The notes under the pieces are model-generated. The model was not told the DNA's origin, ran no database searches, and worked only from the letters and a program-made list of their open reading frames with translations. 64,000 bases of DNA from Beijerinckiaceae bacterium (GTDB lineage: Bacteria; Pseudomonadota; Alphaproteobacteria; Rhizobiales; Beijerinckiaceae): assembly GCA_027533425.1 (NCBI GenBank), contig JAPZUD010000005.1, positions 372,001-436,000 on the forward strand, written 5' to 3'. Below, piece by piece: positions 28,429 to 36,317 of the stretch; the stretch's first letter is position 1; each line of letters begins with the position of its first letter. The position numbers were made by a program, and so were the translations under genes.

Positions 28429-28779
28429 ATGTCCACGGCCAAGCTCCAACCCCTGCCAGCGATCCTGATCGCGAATGACCTGCTCACCGGGGATACCGTC
28501 TTCTTCGCCGGCAATGGCTGGACCCGCCATCCCGGCGAGGCGCTGATGGCGGAAGACCAGGCCGCGTCTCTCCGGCTGGGGGAAGCCGGCCAGGAGGCGA
28601 TGCGGCTGAACCAGGTGGTCGATGCCTATCTCGTCGATGTCGATCTTTCGGCGGGCGGCATCCCTGTTCCCCGCCATTTCCGCGAGCGCTTCCGCCTGCT
28701 TGGCCCGACCATCCGTCCGGATCTCGGCAAGCAAGCCGAGTTTCCTGGCCTGGCCGCACAAGCCGGCCGCACGAGGTGA
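28429..28779 (+). CDS. DUF2849 domain protein of the sulfite reductase operon
   Basis: 116 residues from the ATG at 28429. Segments LPAILIANDLLTGDTVFFAG, GWTRHPGEALMA and VVDAYLVDVDL match DUF2849, small proteins repeatedly found directly before alphaproteobacterial cysI. The biochemical role is unknown; a function as partner or electron-supply factor of the siroheme reductase is only inferred from the neighbourhood. It ends three bases before the cysI start. Confidence 0.85.
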   Translation: MSTAKLQPLPAILIANDLLTGDTVFFAGNGWTRHPGEALMAEDQAASLRLGEAGQEAMRLNQVVDAYLVDVDLSAGGIPVPRHFRERFRLLGPTIRPDLGKQAEFPGLAAQAGRTR

Positions 28780-28782
28780 CCC

Positions 28783-30456
28783 ATGTATCGCTATGATGAG
28801 TTCGATGCGGCCTTCGTGCGTGACCGCGTGGCGCAGTTCTCGGCGCAGGTACAGCGGCGTCTCGCGGGCGCCCTGACCGAGGACGAGTTCAAGCCACTCC
28901 GCCTGCAGAATGGCGTTTACCTGCAGCTGCATGCCTACATGCTCCGGATCGCAATCCCCTATGGCACGCTCTCGGCCCGCCAGTTGCGACAGCTCGCCCT
29001 GATCGGCGAGCGGTTCGACCGCAGCTACGGCCATTTCACGACGCGGCAGAACCTCCAATTCAACTGGATCCAGCTGAAGGACGTGCCTGAAATCCTGTCG
29101 CTGCTGGCGGATGTCGAGATGCACGCCATCCAGACATCGGGCAATTGCATCCGCAACGTTACGGCCGATCAGTTTGCCGGCGTCGCAGCCGACGAGATCG
29201 AGGATCCGCGCCCCGTTGCGGAGCTGATCCGGCAATGGTCGACCGCGCATCCGGAATTCAGTTTCCTGCCCCGCAAGTTCAAGATCGCCGTGACCGGCGC
29301 CGCCGAGGACCGCGCAGCCGTGGCGGTCCATGATATCGGGCTGCGGATCGTCCGGCATCCGGAGACCGGCGAGACCGGCTATGCCGTGCTGGTCGGCGGC
29401 GGCCTCGGGCGGACGCCGATGGTCGGCAAATGGGTGCGCGAATTCCTGCCGAAGCCGCATCTGCTCGCCTATCTCGAGGCGCTGATGCGGGTCTACAATG
29501 CCGAAGGCCGGCGGGACAACAAATACAAGGCGCGGGTGAAGATCCTCGTCCACGAGATCGGAATCGAGGCCTTCCGCGCCCGCGTCGAGGCCGAATTCGC
29601 GCGGCTCGACCCAAGCCGCATCCAGGCGGATGCCGAGGAAGTGGCGCGGATCGCGCGGTATTTCGCGGCACCGGCCTATGCCGACCTACCGGACAATCCG
29701 CCTGCTTTCCGGCGGGCGCGCGCCGCAAACCCGGAATTCGATCGCTGGGCGGCGCAGAACGGTTTCCCGCACAAGGTGCCGGGCTACCAGGCGGTCACCC
29801 TGTCGCTGAAGGGCATCGGCGAGGCCCCGGGCGATATCAGCTCGGCCGGCATGCGGCTCGTCGCCGATCTTGCAGACCGCTACTCGTTCGGCGAAATCCG
29901 CGTCACGCATGCGCAGAACCTTGTCCTGCCTGATGTGCGGCAGGACGAATTGTTTGACCTCTGGCAGGCGCTTGCCGCGGGCGGGCTGGCCACGGCCAAT
30001 GCCGGGCTGATCACCGATATCATCGCCTGCCCCGGGCTCGATTATTGCGCCCTCGCGACGGCGCGGTCGATCCCGATCGCGCAGGCGCTGGCCCGGCGTT
30101 TCGCCTCTCCGGAGCGGCAGCAGGAAATCGGGCCGCTGGCCATCAAGATTTCCGGCTGCATCAATGCCTGCGGCCATCACCATGTCGGGCATATCGGCAT
30201 TCTCGGGCTCGAGAAGCGTGGCGAGGAATCCTACCAGATCACGCTCGGGGGCGATGCCGGCAATGCCAGCGCGATCGGCGAGATCCTCGGGCCGGGCCTT
30301 GGCGCCGAAGATGTGCCCGACGCGATCGAGCGGCTGGTGGCGGTCTATCTCGCCCATCGCCAGCCGGGCGAGCTTTTCGTCGAATCCGTCCGGCGGCTTG
30401 GCATCGAGCCCTTCAAGACCGCCTTCAATGCGGAGATCCACCATGACGCTGCTTGA
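28783..30456 (+). CDS. cysI: Nitrite/sulfite reductase (siroheme [4Fe-4S] hemoprotein)
   Basis: 557 residues. Two NiR/SiR ferredoxin-like halves and two siroheme-binding halves are seen: GHFTTRQNLQFNWI near 83-96, NCIRNVTAD near 121, and the cluster cysteines Cys416, Cys422, Cys459 and Cys463 (CPGLDYC ... CINACGHHH). It reduces sulfite to sulfide in six electrons; the cys context rules for sulfite rather than nitrite. CysG in the same operon makes its siroheme. It overlaps the DUF934 gene by 14 bases. Confidence 0.95.
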   Translation: MYRYDEFDAAFVRDRVAQFSAQVQRRLAGALTEDEFKPLRLQNGVYLQLHAYMLRIAIPYGTLSARQLRQLALIGERFDRSYGHFTTRQNLQFNWIQLKDVPEILSLLADVEMHAIQTSGNCIRNVTADQFAGVAADEIEDPRPVAELIRQWSTAHPEFSFLPRKFKIAVTGAAEDRAAVAVHDIGLRIVRHPETGETGYAVLVGGGLGRTPMVGKWVREFLPKPHLLAYLEALMRVYNAEGRRDNKYKARVKILVHEIGIEAFRARVEAEFARLDPSRIQADAEEVARIARYFAAPAYADLPDNPPAFRRARAANPEFDRWAAQNGFPHKVPGYQAVTLSLKGIGEAPGDISSAGMRLVADLADRYSFGEIRVTHAQNLVLPDVRQDELFDLWQALAAGGLATANAGLITDIIACPGLDYCALATARSIPIAQALARRFASPERQQEIGPLAIKISGCINACGHHHVGHIGILGLEKRGEESYQITLGGDAGNASAIGEILGPGLGAEDVPDAIERLVAVYLAHRQPGELFVESVRRLGIEPFKTAFNAEIHHDAA

Positions 30457-30955
30457 CCGCCACGGGTTCCGTCCCGATCCGTTCCGGCGGCTGCCGGCCT
30501 CCGAAATCGCCGGCCACCCGGCGGTCATCGTGCCGCTGGCGGATGTTCAGGCGGGGCTGCTGGTCCGGGCTTCCGGGCAGCGGATCGGCATCGACATCGC
30601 CAACACGCTGCCGGCGGAGGACGCCGTACCGCTGGCCAACCAGGTCGATCTCATCGCGATCGCCTTTCCGGGCTTTGCCGATGGCCGCGGCTTCACGCTG
30701 GCCCGGCGCCTCCGCCGCAACGGGTTCCGTGGCATTCTCCGCGCTGTCGGCCCGCTCATTCCTGACCAGTTCGCCTATGCGATGGCCTGCGGTTTCGACG
30801 AGGTGGAACTGCCCGATGCGGTTGCCACCCGGCAGGGCGAGGCCGCCTGGCTCGCCGATCTGGCAATCTACAGCACCAGCTACCAGCGGGATTATGCCCG
30901 CGGGCAAAACATTCTCGATGCGCGCCGCGAGGCTCGCCAGGGTGGTGGGGCATGA
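30443..30955 (+). CDS. DUF934 domain protein
   Basis: 170 residues from the ATG at 30443, inside the end of cysI. Segments DLIAIAFPGFADGRGFTLARRLRR and GFRGILRAVGPLIPDQFAYAMACGFDEVEL are the DUF934 core, a family confined to sulfite reductase operons. No catalytic motif can be recognised. Its stop overlaps the cysH ATG (ATGA), giving tight coupling. Confidence 0.9.
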   Translation: MTLLDRHGFRPDPFRRLPASEIAGHPAVIVPLADVQAGLLVRASGQRIGIDIANTLPAEDAVPLANQVDLIAIAFPGFADGRGFTLARRLRRNGFRGILRAVGPLIPDQFAYAMACGFDEVELPDAVATRQGEAAWLADLAIYSTSYQRDYARGQNILDARREARQGGGA

Positions 30956-31692
30956 CAGAGGCGCGTGCCAATGACCTTGCCCTCGCGCTGGCCGGGCTGC
31001 CGCTGGCGGCGCGGTTGCGGCGGATCCGGCAGGCTTTCGAGGGCAAGCTGGTCTTCACCACCAGTCTTGGCCTCGAGGACCAGGTACTCACCCATCTGAT
31101 CTTCCGCGAGGGGCTCGATATCGAGGTCGCCACGCTGGATACCGGGCGGCTCTTCCCGGAAACCTATGCGCTCTGGGCCGATACGGAGATGCATTACGGA
31201 CGGCGGATCCGTGGCTTTGCGCCGGACCGGATCGCCATCGAACGCCTTCTGGACGATCAGGGGATCAACGGTTTCCGGCTTTCTCCGGAGGCGCGCAAGG
31301 CCTGCTGCCATGTGCGCAAGGTGGAGCCGCTCCGGCGCGTGCTGGCCGGGGCTGAGGGCTGGCTGACGGGCCTGAGGGCCAGCCAGTCCACCCAGCGGCA
31401 GGGTACCGGCGTGCTGGGCTTCGAGCCGGAATTCGGCCTGTGGAAGATCAACCCGCTCTTCGACCAGACCCGCGAGACGCTGGCCGATCTGGCCGGGCGC
31501 TGGTCGGTTCCTGTCAACCCGCTCCATGCCGAGGGTTATCTCTCGATCGGTTGCCAGCCCTGCACCCGGGCGATCCAGCCCGGCGAGGATGAAAGGGCCG
31601 GGCGCTGGTGGTGGGAGGCCGATGCCCGTCGCGAATGCGGATTGCATCTCGCCGCCGCCAGCCCGGCGCCTGACGAGAGCCGGAGGGCCTGA
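30952..31692 (+). CDS. cysH: Adenylylsulfate (APS) reductase, thioredoxin-dependent
   Basis: 246 residues. The pairs Cys118-Cys119 and Cys201/Cys204 (ACCHVRK, IGCQPC) bind the [4Fe-4S] cluster found in bacterial APS reductases and absent from PAPS reductases; the catalytic cysteine is Cys229 in ECGLH. It reduces APS to sulfite and AMP. No separate cysC (APS kinase) is present here and CysN has no kinase domain, which agrees with a direct APS route. Confidence 0.94.
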
Positions 31693-31693
31693 C

Positions 31694-32596
31694 ATGCACC
31701 AGACCAGCCATTTGCGGCGCCTCGAGGCCGAGTCGATCTTCATCTTCCGCGAGGTTTTCGCCACCTGCGACAAGCCGGTCCTGCTCTATTCGATCGGCAA
31801 GGATTCGGCGGTGCTGCTGCATCTCGCGCTCAAGGCCTTCGCGCCGGGCCGGCTGCCTTTCCCCGTGCTGCATATCGATACGGGCTGGAAGTTCCGCGAG
31901 ATGATCGCCTTTCGCGACGAGACCGCCCGGCGGCTCGGGCTGGACCTGATCGTCCATACCAATCCGGAGGGGCTTGCGGCCGGGATCGGCCCGCTGACCC
32001 ACGGCTCGGCGGTGCATACCGATGTGATGAAGACGCAGGCGCTGAAGCAGGCGTTGGACCAGCATGGCTTCGATGCGGCATTCGGCGGTGCGCGGCGCGA
32101 CGAGGAAAAATCCCGGGCCAAGGAGCGCATCTTCTCGCTGCGCACGCCGGATCATCGCTGGGATCCGCGGTCCCAACGGCCGGAACCCTGGCTGCTGTTC
32201 AACACGCGGAAGGCGCAGGGCGAGAGCTTCCGGGTCTTCCCGCTCTCGAACTGGACCGAAACGGATGTCTGGGACTATATCGCGCTCGAATCCATTCCGG
32301 TCGTTCCGCTCTATTTCGCCAAGCCGCGCCCCGTCGTGCAGCGGAACGGCGCACTGATCATGCGCGATGATGACCGGCTGACCCTGCTGCCGGACGAGGT
32401 GATCGAGACGCGGATGGTCCGCTTCCGGACGCTGGGCTGCTACCCGCTGACGGGTGCTGTCGAGAGCCATGCCGAGACGCTGGATGCCGTGCTGGCGGAA
32501 ATGCGCGAGAGCCGCGTTTCCGAGCGGCAGGGCCGTGTCATCGACCATGATTCCACGAGCTCGATGGAAAAGAAGAAGCAAGAGGGATATTTCTGA
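31694..32596 (+). CDS. cysD: Sulfate adenylyltransferase subunit 2 (CysD)
   Basis: 300 residues. The ATP-pyrophosphatase motif SIGKDS (about 33-38), [30 protein letters not shown] and the C-terminal [14 protein letters not shown] are standard for CysD. It makes APS from sulfate and ATP, with CysN supplying energy from GTP. The last base of its stop is the first base of the cysN ATG. Confidence 0.97.
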
Positions 32597-34200
32597 TGCC
32601 TCCCGCCCTCCTTGCCGCTCGCCGGCCCGAACCGGATTTTCCGGAGGCCGGCGCCCTTCCGGACCCGGCCGGACGGAGCCTTCTGCGTTTCATCACCTGC
32701 GGCTCCGTCGATGACGGCAAGTCGACGCTGCTCGGCCGCCTGCTCTGGGAAACCGGTGCGGTGTATGAGGACCAGGCCGACGCGCTGGCGCGGGATTCGG
32801 AACGGTTCGGCACCGATGGCAAGAACCGTGACTACGCGTTGCTGGTCGATGGCCTTTCCGCCGAACGCGAGCAGGGCATCACCATCGATGTCGCCTACCG
32901 CTATTTCGCGACGCCGCGCCGCGCCTTCATCGCGGCGGATACGCCCGGCCATGAGCAATACACCCGCAACATGGCGACAGGTGCCTCGACGGCCGATGCG
33001 GCGATCCTGCTGGTGGATGCCCGCAAAGGCGTGCTGCCACAAACGCGGCGGCATTCCTCCATCGTCTCGCTGGTGGGTGTGAAGGATGTCATCCTTGCCA
33101 TCAACAAGATGGATCTCGTCGGCTTCGACGAGGCCGTTTTCCGGCGGATCGAAAGCGAGTATCGCGCCCTTGCCGCCCGGCTCGGCTTCCGCTCGATCCA
33201 TGCCCTGCCGCTGGTCGCGCGGGATGGCGACACCCTCACCCGGCACTCCGGCCGCATGCCCTGGTATGGCGGTCCGACGCTTCTCGACCTGTTGGAGACC
33301 CTCGAACCGGCGCTTCCGGTCGATGGCCGGTTCTACCTCCCGGTCCAATGGGTGAACCGCCCGAATGCCGATTTCCGCGGCTTTTCCGGAACCGTCGCCA
33401 GCGGGCAGATCCGTGTCGGGGATCCGGTCACCATCCTGCCACAGGGCCGGGCGAGCCGGATCGCGGAGATCCTGACGCCGGAAGGCGCCCGGGACGCGGC
33501 AAGAGGCGGCGATGCCGTGACGGTCACCCTCGCGGACGAGACCGATGTGGCGCGCGGCGACGTGATCACGGTCGGGCATCGGCCGGCGCATACAAGCGGA
33601 ACCCTGACGGCGCGGCTGCTCGTTCTCGGCGAGCGTGTGCTCGCACCGGGTGACCGGCTGCTCGCCAAGCTCGGCATGGCGACGGTTCCGGTTCGCTTCG
33701 AGACCCTGGCCCACGAACTCTCCGTGGAGGACCTCTCGCCCCAGCCGGCCCGGCATCTCGCGATGAACGGAATCGGCAAGGCCATCCTCCGGCCCGAAGC
33801 CCCGCTCTTCGCCCTGCCCTACGACGAGTGCAAGATACTGGGCAGCTTCCTGCTGATCGATCCGACTACCCATGCCACCCTCGCCATGGGTATCATCGAG
33901 GCGGTGTCGAGCCGTTCCCGCGAGGCTTCGCCCCAACGTTCCGAGGACGCCCATCCCCGGCGGGCAAGGCTGCAGCCTTCACTCCGGCCGGAGCGGATCC
34001 GATCCGCGATCACGACCCTGCTCTTCGCCGTTGCCGGCTTCCTGCTGACCGGCACGCTGGCCGGAGCGCTGATCCTCGCGGCGCTCGACGGAATCGGGCG
34101 GCCGCTGCTCATTTCGCTGCAGGAGAGGTTCTGGCCCGTGGAAAAGAAGCCGGCCCTTTCCGGGGCTCCTGAGCCGGGCCTTGATGGAGGCGGCATATGA
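32596..34200 (+). CDS. cysN: Sulfate adenylyltransferase subunit 1 (CysN) with a C-terminal membrane-type extension
   Basis: 534 residues. The GTPase core is complete: P-loop GSVDDGKST (36-44), DTPGHEQYTRNM and INKMD. The adenylylsulfate kinase domain of CysNC fusions is absent. Instead residues about 464-515 hold two hydrophobic helices (ITTLLFAVAGFLLTGTLAG and a second ending GRPLLISLQERFW), which resemble the small DUF2061 membrane domain. This would tether the sulfurylase to the membrane. The stop overlaps a small ORF (ATGA). The core call is secure; the DUF2061 relation is by eye. Confidence 0.9.
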   Translation: MPPALLAARRPEPDFPEAGALPDPAGRSLLRFITCGSVDDGKSTLLGRLLWETGAVYEDQADALARDSERFGTDGKNRDYALLVDGLSAEREQGITIDVAYRYFATPRRAFIAADTPGHEQYTRNMATGASTADAAILLVDARKGVLPQTRRHSSIVSLVGVKDVILAINKMDLVGFDEAVFRRIESEYRALAARLGFRSIHALPLVARDGDTLTRHSGRMPWYGGPTLLDLLETLEPALPVDGRFYLPVQWVNRPNADFRGFSGTVASGQIRVGDPVTILPQGRASRIAEILTPEGARDAARGGDAVTVTLADETDVARGDVITVGHRPAHTSGTLTARLLVLGERVLAPGDRLLAKLGMATVPVRFETLAHELSVEDLSPQPARHLAMNGIGKAILRPEAPLFALPYDECKILGSFLLIDPTTHATLAMGIIEAVSSRSREASPQRSEDAHPRRARLQPSLRPERIRSAITTLLFAVAGFLLTGTLAGALILAALDGIGRPLLISLQERFWPVEKKPALSGAPEPGLDGGGI

Positions 34201-34322
34201 ACCCACCACCCGTGCATCCAAACGAATGGATTTTCCGCCTCTTCCTGCTGGCGCTCACCCTGCTCTGGCTGCTCCTGCCATCCGCCCGGGCTTATGCTCT
34301 CACCGCGCAGGTCCTATCGTGA
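34197..34322 (+). CDS. Small hydrophobic 41-residue ORF between cysN and cysG
   Basis: Starts with ATG overlapping the cysN stop (ATGA) and ends with TGA overlapping the GTG start of cysG (GTGA). This exact packing is what translationally coupled genes show. The peptide begins MNPPPVHPNEW, has a very hydrophobic core (residues about 13-27, rich in Leu) and then PSARAYA, so it looks like a signal peptide or a single-pass membrane peptide. I know no family for it. It may help couple CysG translation or act as a membrane partner. Confidence 0.6.
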   Translation: MNPPPVHPNEWIFRLFLLALTLLWLLLPSARAYALTAQVLS

Positions 34323-35770
34323 TACCCCGCCGCGTCCCGACATCCCAACCGCCGGCGCGGATTGCGCCGCTTGCGACTCTGCCGGTCTTCCACAAGCTGC
34401 AAGGCCGTTTCGTGATCCTCGCCGGCCATTCGGACGGGGTGCGCTGGAAAGCCGAACTGCTTGCCGCATCGGGTGCGGAGGTGCGGCTCTTCGCGCCGCC
34501 CGGCGCCTTTGCCGAGCCGTTTGCCGAGGCGCGGATCCGCCTGCAGGACCGGTCCTGGCAGGAGGGTGACTTTGCCGGCGCAGCTTTGGCTGTCGGCGAT
34601 TTCGATACGGATGATCATGCTGCTGCCTTCGCCGCTGCCGCCCGTAAGGCCGGCATCCCTGTCAACCTGATCGACCGCCCCGCTTTCTGCGATTTCCAGT
34701 TCGGTGCGATCGTCAACCGCTCGCCGCTGGTCATCTCGATATCGACGGACGGGGCAGCGCCTGTCTTCGGGCAGGCAATCCGGGCCCGGATCGAGGCCCT
34801 TTTTCCAGCCGGCATCGCCCACTGGGCCGCCGCCGCCCGCGACTGGCGGCGCTATGTCCAGGCCAGCCGGCCGGGCTATGCGCTGCGGCGGCTGTTCTGG
34901 GAACGCTTCACCGAGCGGGCTCTGGCCGAGCCGGAGCGACGCCCGGATGCTGGCGACCGCCGCGACCTTCTGCGGGCCTTCGCGCGAGACAGGCAGGCCC
35001 CGCCGGCGGGTCGGGTCAGCCTTGTTGGGGCGGGACCCGGCGATCCGGAACTGCTGACGCTGAAAGCGCTGCGCGCGCTTCACTCCGCAGACATCATCCT
35101 GCATGATGATCTGGTCGCCTCGGAAATCCTGGATCTCTCCCGCCGGGAGGCAGAGCGGATCCGCGTCGGAAAGACCGGGCATGGCCCGTCCTGCCGCCAG
35201 AGAGATATCTGTAGCCTGATCGTCCGCGAGGCGCTGGCCGGCAAGCGTGTCGTCCGGCTCAAGGGTGGCGATCCGCTGATCTTTGGCAGGGCCACAGAAG
35301 AAATCGAGGCCTGCCGCGCCGCCGGCGTGACCGTCGATATCGTGCCCGGCATTTCCGCAGCACAGGGTGCGGCGGCGACGCTCGGTCTTTCGCTGACCGA
35401 GCGGAGGCAGGCGAGGCGCATCCAGTATGTGACGGGCCATGGCGAGGACGGCGCCTTGCCCGCCGACATCAACTGGGCGGCCCTTGCCGACCCGCTCGCC
35501 ACGACGGTGATCTATATGCCGCGCCGTACGCTGGAGAGCTTCGTGCAGAACGCGCTCTCGGCAGGCCTTGATCCGGCCACGCCGGCCATCGCGGTGGTCA
35601 ACGCCACCCGCAGCATGCAACGCCAGCAGCGAGCCCGGATCGACGCCCTGCCAGCCGCGTTGGGCGATTTGCCGGAAACCGGCCCGATGCTGGTGATGAT
35701 CGGGGCTGTCCTGCGGGAGCCTGCCATGGCGTCAATGGAGATGAATTCCCTGCCGATTGCCGCTGAATAG
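34319..35770 (+). CDS. cysG: Siroheme synthase CysG (multifunctional)
   Basis: 483 residues from the GTG at 34319; an ATG at 34181 inside cysN is less likely. The N-terminal dehydrogenase/ferrochelatase part (about 25-220) is followed by the uroporphyrinogen-III methyltransferase domain (SLVGAGPGDPELLTLKALRAL, RLKGGDPLIFGR, VPGISAAQGAAA). It converts uroporphyrinogen III to siroheme for CysI. The dinucleotide site reads LAGHSDGVRWKAELLAASG, without the usual GGG, so the dehydrogenase step deserves a check. Confidence 0.93.
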   Translation: MIPRRVPTSQPPARIAPLATLPVFHKLQGRFVILAGHSDGVRWKAELLAASGAEVRLFAPPGAFAEPFAEARIRLQDRSWQEGDFAGAALAVGDFDTDDHAAAFAAAARKAGIPVNLIDRPAFCDFQFGAIVNRSPLVISISTDGAAPVFGQAIRARIEALFPAGIAHWAAAARDWRRYVQASRPGYALRRLFWERFTERALAEPERRPDAGDRRDLLRAFARDRQAPPAGRVSLVGAGPGDPELLTLKALRALHSADIILHDDLVASEILDLSRREAERIRVGKTGHGPSCRQRDICSLIVREALAGKRVVRLKGGDPLIFGRATEEIEACRAAGVTVDIVPGISAAQGAAATLGLSLTERRQARRIQYVTGHGEDGALPADINWAALADPLATTVIYMPRRTLESFVQNALSAGLDPATPAIAVVNATRSMQRQQRARIDALPAALGDLPETGPMLVMIGAVLREPAMASMEMNSLPIAAE

Positions 35771-35855: not shown

Positions 35856-36317
35856 ATGGACGCCATTGACCGCAAGATCCTCACGGTGCTCCAGGAGGAT
35901 TGCACTGTCAGCCTTGGCGAGCTTTCACATCGCGTCGGCCTGTCCCAGACGCCATGCTGGAAGCGCATCCAGCGGCTTGACGCCAGCGGCGTCATCATGC
36001 GCCGCGTCGCCCTCGTCTCTCCGGAGAAGATCGGTCTTGGACTGACGGTCTTCGTCCAGATCGAAACAGGCGACCATTCCGGACCATGGTTGCAGAATTT
36101 TGCCCGAACGGTCTCGTCGATGCCCGAGGTGATGGATATCTACCGGATGGCCGGGGATGTCGATTACATGCTGCGCGTCGTGGTCCGCGACATGGCGGAG
36201 TTCGACGCCTTCTACAAGCGCCTGATCGAGGTGATCCCGCTCAAGAACGTCACCTCGCGCTTCGCAATGGAACGCGTGAAATCCACCACCAGCTACCGGG
36301 TGCCGGAGCTGGCCTGA
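35856..36317 (+). CDS. Lrp/AsnC family transcriptional regulator
   Basis: 153 residues from the ATG at 35856, with GGAGGG eight bases upstream. The HTH (VSLGELSHRVGLSQTPCWKRIQRL) covers about 18-40 and the RAM ligand domain follows (VMDIYRMAGDVDYMLRVVVRDM). It probably senses an amino acid. The facing gene is ilvD of branched-chain amino acid synthesis, a plausible but unproven target. Confidence 0.93.
   Translation: MDAIDRKILTVLQEDCTVSLGELSHRVGLSQTPCWKRIQRLDASGVIMRRVALVSPEKIGLGLTVFVQIETGDHSGPWLQNFARTVSSMPEVMDIYRMAGDVDYMLRVVVRDMAEFDAFYKRLIEVIPLKNVTSRFAMERVKSTTSYRVPELA

Follow-up and report, generated by a model that had tools for sequence, protein, structure and literature searches.

The sulfate-assimilation gene set of a Beijerinckiaceae bacterium raises the question of whether a frame of 41 codons between cysN and cysG is a gene and, if so, which of the neighbouring enzymes its product would serve. 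The window, i.e. the whole stretch of DNA that was analysed, has a length of 64,000 nucleotides, and the features discussed here are collected in Table 1. The genes DUF2849, cysI, DUF934, cysH, cysD, cysN, the short frame (smORF) and cysG follow one another in this order on one strand and are tightly packed. The translation of the smORF is MNPPPVHPNEWIFRLFLLALTLLWLLLPSARAYALTAQVLS, followed by the stop codon. The original prediction had described a four-nucleotide overlap at either end of the frame, ATGA with cysN and GTGA with cysG, and both are present exactly as described. Since the whole set of genes is packed in this tight manner, the overlaps are unremarkable in themselves. The CysN of the window scored 533.6 bits against TIGR02034, above the cut-off of 336.1, and 536.7 bits against the narrower equivalog NF003478, below its cut-off of 590; the product of cysD, directly upstream of cysN, scored 497.1 bits against TIGR02039 (cut-off 396.6). 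Terminator-like sites near the cys cluster were not in excess (4 versus 4.6 in shuffles), and the two promoter-like sites found near it are both on the opposite strand. A gene for an AsnC/Lrp-type regulator, recognized by eye, lies just downstream of the gene set (35858-36317) and may control the cys genes. Such a gene also lies downstream at loci L001-L005 and, as seen by eye, on the other strand at locus L160 of genome G010.

Table 1. Features of the cys gene set and of the smORF, in positions of the window.
Feature	Position	Strand	Basis and remarks
DUF2849 gene, head of the packed cys gene set	28429..28779	+	start by eye; 28432-28779 scanned with Pfam
cysI-type sulfite reductase	28783..30456	+	NIR_SIR
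DUF934 gene	30443..30955	+	start by eye; 30440-30955 scanned
cysH, PAPS/APS reductase	30952..31692	+	
cysD, sulfate adenylyltransferase small subunit	31694..32596	+	NF009214, TIGR02039
cysN, sulfate adenylyltransferase large subunit with C-terminal membrane tail, 534 aa	32596..34200	+	TIGR02034
Two-helix DUF2061-like hairpin of CysN, residues 465-485 and 488-512	33988..34131	+	AlphaFold2, hhalign
CysN C-terminal motif D-G-G-G-I-COOH, conserved	34183..34197	+	alignment of tails
GGAGG, Shine-Dalgarno site of the smORF, 6 nt 5' of the ATG	34186..34190	+	by eye; within the codons of the CysN C-terminal DGGGI
smORF, very probable gene of a predicted 41-aa single-pass membrane protein	34197..34322	+	ATG start, TGA stop
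ATGA overlap of the smORF start with the cysN stop (34198-34200)	34197..34200	+	sequence
Hydrophobic stretch of the smORF product, residues 12-29, IFRLFLLALTLLWLLLPS	34230..34283	+	sequence
GTGA overlap of the smORF stop with the cysG GTG start at 34319	34319..34322	+	sequence; ATGA in most relatives
cysG, siroheme synthase, 483 aa, GTG start	34319..35770	+	PRK10637, 475.9 bits versus cut-off 400

To judge a single genome, the chance of an open frame was estimated at 65.6% G+C. At this base composition of the window 40 codons remain open with P ~0.37, and the cysG frame is also open across the smORF stretch. The earlier argument that random ORFs rarely fit both ends so exactly is therefore weak evidence in one genome, and it was on comparison that the fit went beyond chance. 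Four congeners could be aligned over the cysN-cysG junction at 73-82% DNA identity. Stops or frameshifts, which had been named beforehand as evidence against a gene, occur in the smORF frame of none of these four close relatives, and exactly 41 codons together with both four-nucleotide overlaps are found in 5/5 close Rhabdaerophilum species. In two more distant congeners (G005 and G016) the ORF is absent from the cysN-cysG junction. The dN/dS ratio, calculated for ten pairs as had been proposed, was 0.04-0.52 in the smORF frame, 0.84-4.03 in the cysN frame (one pair undefined) and 1.36-18.9 in the cysG frame of the same stretch, and was thus clearly below 1 in the smORF frame only. The variable columns were distributed over the three codon positions as 10, 8 and 28 (third positions 28/46, P 1.2e-4), and with the most distant species removed 24 of the 35 variable columns were third positions (P 2.2e-5). 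When neutral evolution was simulated with substitutions only, all five lineages stayed open in 2.1% of the runs. The congener ORFs, the third-position bias, the dN/dS values and the divergent homologues in other genera and in another family place the smORF beyond chance. This comparative sequence evidence argues strongly against a chance frame, and the smORF is very probably a real gene.

The distribution of the smORF was investigated by profile searches. In Rhabdaerophilum it was found in 10 of the 17 genomes with an early profile and in 11 of the 17 with an improved profile, which added G014. Among 397 genomes of the same family it was present in 43 (E ≤ 0.001), namely 11 of Rhabdaerophilum, 29 of the genus g12, and G030, G035 and G532, which represent three further genera. 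The genus g12, a large-genome genus that we assume may be Bosea, is the largest genus of the smORF set. Order-wide, 8 of 337 genomes were positive (broadest profile, E ≤ 1e-4), half of them (4/8) in a second family, f20; a class-wide search of 240 genomes returned only own-genus matches and two weak ones, with nothing convincing beyond, and short hydrophobic profiles such as these can overlook distant members. The two weak class-wide matches (loci L155 and L156) were rejected, both lying within unrelated longer frames. Weak order-wide matches in six genomes (E 1.5e-4 to 0.003) were left uncounted, as their frames of 94 to 569 aa look like chance membrane helices, and two weak second-place matches (E > 0.02) were dropped.

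The ends of the smORFs were read at 35 of the 37 loci given; G532 is off the pattern and was treated by hand, and G310 is cut by the end of its contig. The products read have a length of 34-83 aa, with N-termini that are uncertain in g12, and at G135 and G165 the automated start lies later than the ATG in the ATGA seen at those loci. All cysN-adjacent smORFs read (17/17) start with the ATG of an ATGA shared with the cysN stop. The common pattern consists of F[RK]L or similar, followed by seven or eight mainly hydrophobic residues, W and P; G014 and G532 deviate from it at F[RK]L. M1, F13 and W24 are invariant in an alignment of 18 rows, and the core is recognizable across two families. The smORF was not matched in Pfam (18 members scanned, best E 0.087), in NCBIfam (9 members scanned, best E 0.014) or, by profile, among PDB chain sequences (best E 0.25). 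AlphaFold2 predicted a single helix for the window product, comprising residues 8-40 (mean pLDDT 75.7), and cysteines are absent from it. The product thus has the properties of small proteins of the CydX or AcrZ kind: it is short, has one predicted membrane helix and is under purifying selection.

The sulfate-activating GTPase subunit (CysN) is normally regarded as soluble, and the activation of sulfate is commonly described as a reaction of soluble enzymes. In the window, CysN carries a tail that extends past its third domain. The original prediction had called this tail membrane-type, and the AlphaFold2 helices agree with that description. AlphaFold2, run on the last 200 residues of CysN with 21 sequences, predicted a beta domain with confidence and, after a disordered linker, two helices whose pLDDT lies in the 70s. 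The window tail matched 0 Pfam families at E up to 10, and as DUF2061 was not matched directly, the tail is termed DUF2061-like. The CysN tail of G014 is a clear DUF2061 (PF09834; 80 bits versus a cut-off of 23.1, E 1.7e-22), and 9 of 22 CysN tails matched this domain at E ≤ 0.01. When compared by hhalign, the tail group of the window (five species) matched a second group, made up of ten other tails with that of G014 among them (96.5%, 7e-10). Homology between the smORF and the CysN hairpin was looked for by profile comparison and not found. Each of the 22 aligned tails has G-[GAS]-[GS]-I at its C-terminus, in 17 cases after a D, and the ending is mostly D-G-[GAS]-G-I. As the C-terminal motif is also present where no smORF follows (e.g. 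G027 and G087), the DGGGI of the window is a protein feature that doubles as the ribosome-binding site. A weaker CysN match in G033 ends in DEAGL and was unmatched by the later tail profile. A scan of named genomes with the C-terminal 205 aa of CysN gave no match; with a five-row alignment, four named loci were obtained.

The tailed CysN was sought in 54 same-family genomes outside the genus for which the smORF status was known, 32 bearing the smORF and 22 without it; absence among the 22 was based on the family profile search for 18 and on a direct search for the other 4. A tailed CysN was present in 32/32 smORF-bearing versus 3/22 smORF-less genomes (Fisher 8e-12 by genome), counts that are non-independent since 29 of the 32 belong to one genus, g12. 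Counted by genus, it was present in 4/4 smORF-bearing versus 3/17 smORF-less genera (P 0.006). The tail match of G717 spans just 79 of 112 positions. In 29 of the 32 genomes the smORF and the tailed cysN are separated by 114 kb or more or do not share a contig. Adding the 11 Rhabdaerophilum and 4 f20 genomes gives a tailed CysN in 47/47 smORF bearers; only the 32 are an unbiased count, because the cases from the genus and from f20 were partly found through cysN.

Within Rhabdaerophilum, CysN was detected in 13 of the 17 genomes (E ≤ 1e-60); the tail was found by search in 12 of these and seen by reading in G007. The smORF directly follows cysN in 11 of the 13, the exceptions being G005 and G016, and the four genomes without a CysN match are also without the smORF. 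In the draft genome G007 (loci L099 and L131) cysN is split across contigs and its frame changes partway, be it by an assembly error or by a real break; the smORF behind it is uninterrupted, and cysG also has an open frame. Among the four CysN-less congeners, cysG was not detected in G004, G008 and G011 and is present in G003. Together with the g12 genome G406, where cysG was likewise unmatched, these three genomes suggest that sulfate assimilation has been lost more than once (completeness of G011, only 78%). A direct smORF search in eight genomes with a tailed CysN (G005, G016, G018, G026, G032, G087, G156 and G378) gave 0/8, and a tailed CysN therefore does not need the smORF; this search, 14 genomes in all, included no positive control, and the same profile finds known members order-wide. 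Among the 22 smORF-less genomes of the family count, the three with a tailed CysN are G018, G026 and G032, the last with cysN followed by what by eye is a TauE-like permease, not matched in NCBIfam at E 1e-5. In the genomes sampled, the smORF is present solely alongside a CysN with a DUF2061-like tail.

Because it is found only in genomes with a membrane-anchored CysN, the smORF product is probably a small partner of this protein, and the reading towards which we lean, on balance, is that of a CydX-like small membrane partner of a membrane-anchored CysDN. A membrane partner of the sulfate-activating complex had been proposed from the window alone; the one-helix product, the purifying selection and the presence with tailed CysN only, also when the two genes are unlinked, support this indirectly. 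The product would be located in the inner membrane against the CysN hairpin, where it would stabilize, orient or regulate the anchored CysDN, and sulfate arriving from a transporter would perhaps be activated to APS at the membrane. Activation at the membrane would agree with the presence, in some relatives, of sulfate ABC transporter genes in the gene set of the tailed CysN. A substrate-binding gene of such a transporter follows the tailed cysN in G156 (locus L064) and cysG in G532 (locus L157), and in G026 (locus L199) the tailed cysN is followed by a transporter set recognized by eye. A wider proposal, which we put forward more tentatively, is that some Hyphomicrobiales may run sulfate activation at the membrane, with a hairpin CysN completed by a dedicated one-helix subunit and the ATP sulfurylase complex placed next to sulfate import.

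The product could instead serve the sulfite-reduction and siroheme side (CysG, DUF934 or CysI) as a small partner that holds siroheme synthesis or sulfite reductase at the membrane, and the link to tailed CysN would then reflect inherited gene order; we consider this unlikely. Of 35 smORFs whose two ends were read, 33 finish in a four-nucleotide overlap with the cysG start, cysG being the commonest neighbour, and this makes a partnership with CysG or DUF934 possible. In g12, moreover, the smORF lies between DUF934 and cysG and away from cysN (7/19 loci inspected by eye; DUF934 was Pfam-confirmed at L149 only), and cysN is located elsewhere, after cysH and cysD, as seen in G027. However, all smORF-bearing g12 genomes (29/29) still have a tailed CysN, and G010 keeps the smORF after cysN although a neighbouring cysG is absent. 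A second type of cysG, which by eye follows a nitrate-reductase-like frame, was observed at loci L203 (G003), L204 (G010) and L205 (G005). None of these three is preceded by the smORF, the one in G010 being the sole cysG found there and the one in G005 the second of that genome. For G010 and the nitrate-type cysG, CysG or DUF934 as the partner is the poorer explanation. The g12 genome G406 was also tested; its CysN tail and the smORF are absent, and as cysG is undetected there too, it does not separate the CysN from the siroheme-side reading.

It is improbable that the smORF is a mere coupler or leader that passes ribosomes from cysN to cysG and whose peptide is irrelevant. The suggestion of a translational coupler for siroheme synthase had been part of the original prediction, and the exact four-nucleotide overlaps at both ends, seen in most cases in which cysN precedes, would suit it. 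It was not borne out: the amino-acid sequence is under purifying selection with a core recognizable in two families, and the idea fails on both sides. On one side, genomes that lack the smORF can have cysG right behind cysN, the cysN stop overlapping the TTG start of cysG (TTGA) in G005 and G016 and cysG beginning 4 nt after cysN in G018, so that the smORF is unneeded as a coupler. On the other side, G010 has the smORF and no adjacent cysG to couple. The tight overlaps would keep translation of the smORF in step with cysN and cysG, and this packing would not be the function of the gene.

Of the two products first envisaged, a signal or a single-pass membrane peptide, the latter fits better. 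A signal peptide or a secreted or periplasmic micro-peptide would have ARAYA as its signal peptidase site, and we regard it as very improbable. The motif (ARAYA or ARAFA) occurs in just 5 of the 18 aligned rows, and about seven residues would be left after cleavage; as it is confined to the five closest species, a single-pass membrane protein is preferred. A chance open frame in G+C-rich DNA, to which the single-genome estimate and the equally open cysG frame would lend themselves, is scarcely credible in view of the five-lineage simulation, the dN/dS values, the third-position bias, the conserved Shine-Dalgarno context and the divergent homologues in other genera.

The preferred partnership with an anchored CysN has likenesses among known systems. 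CydX, the 37-aa small subunit of cytochrome bd oxidase, and CydY/CydZ are likewise tiny, hydrophobic and encoded with enzyme genes, and CydX and the smORF are both variable in sequence with few fixed residues. CydX is reported to go with one structural form of CydA, the one with a long Q-loop (PMC4325964); the presence of the smORF with tailed CysN would similarly follow a variant of the partner. Database matches linking the two proteins are absent, and the proposed partner of the smORF product differs in being a sulfate-activating GTPase subunit with a fused hairpin. The small accessory gene cysX also lies within a sulfate-assimilation cluster, fpr2-cysIXHDNYZ of Corynebacterium glutamicum; four cysteines are conserved in CysX, however, which has been considered ferredoxin-like (PMC1266029), whereas the smORF product is a cysteine-less, hydrophobic predicted helix. 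AcrZ is another small transmembrane protein that binds a larger membrane partner, AcrB (PMC7267776); that interaction was solved by cryo-EM, whereas the one between the smORF product and CysN is inferred. The CysN tail itself belongs with DUF2061 through the tail of G014 and the hhalign match to the window group, and this domain is described in Pfam as a predicted membrane protein without function. The titles found in the open-access literature naming DUF2061 included none concerning CysN, and among the matches listed there none deals with a small membrane protein encoded next to cysN or cysG, as far as titles and the beginnings of abstracts tell.

We know of no earlier dedicated small-protein subunit of a sulfate-activating enzyme, and the smORF product would be the first, if the reading is true. 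If CysN is hairpin-anchored and has such a partner, sulfate activation would be placed at the membrane, a role could be suggested for DUF2061, and the enzymes with overlooked micro-subunits would include one from a sulfur pathway. Annotation may skip so short a gene in the interior of a packed set. At locus L073 of G378, which belongs to another family, the tailed CysN ends in DDGGGI and is followed by a different ORF of 55 aa, which starts in an ATGA with the cysN stop, has a C-terminal hydrophobic stretch and is possibly an analogue of the smORF.
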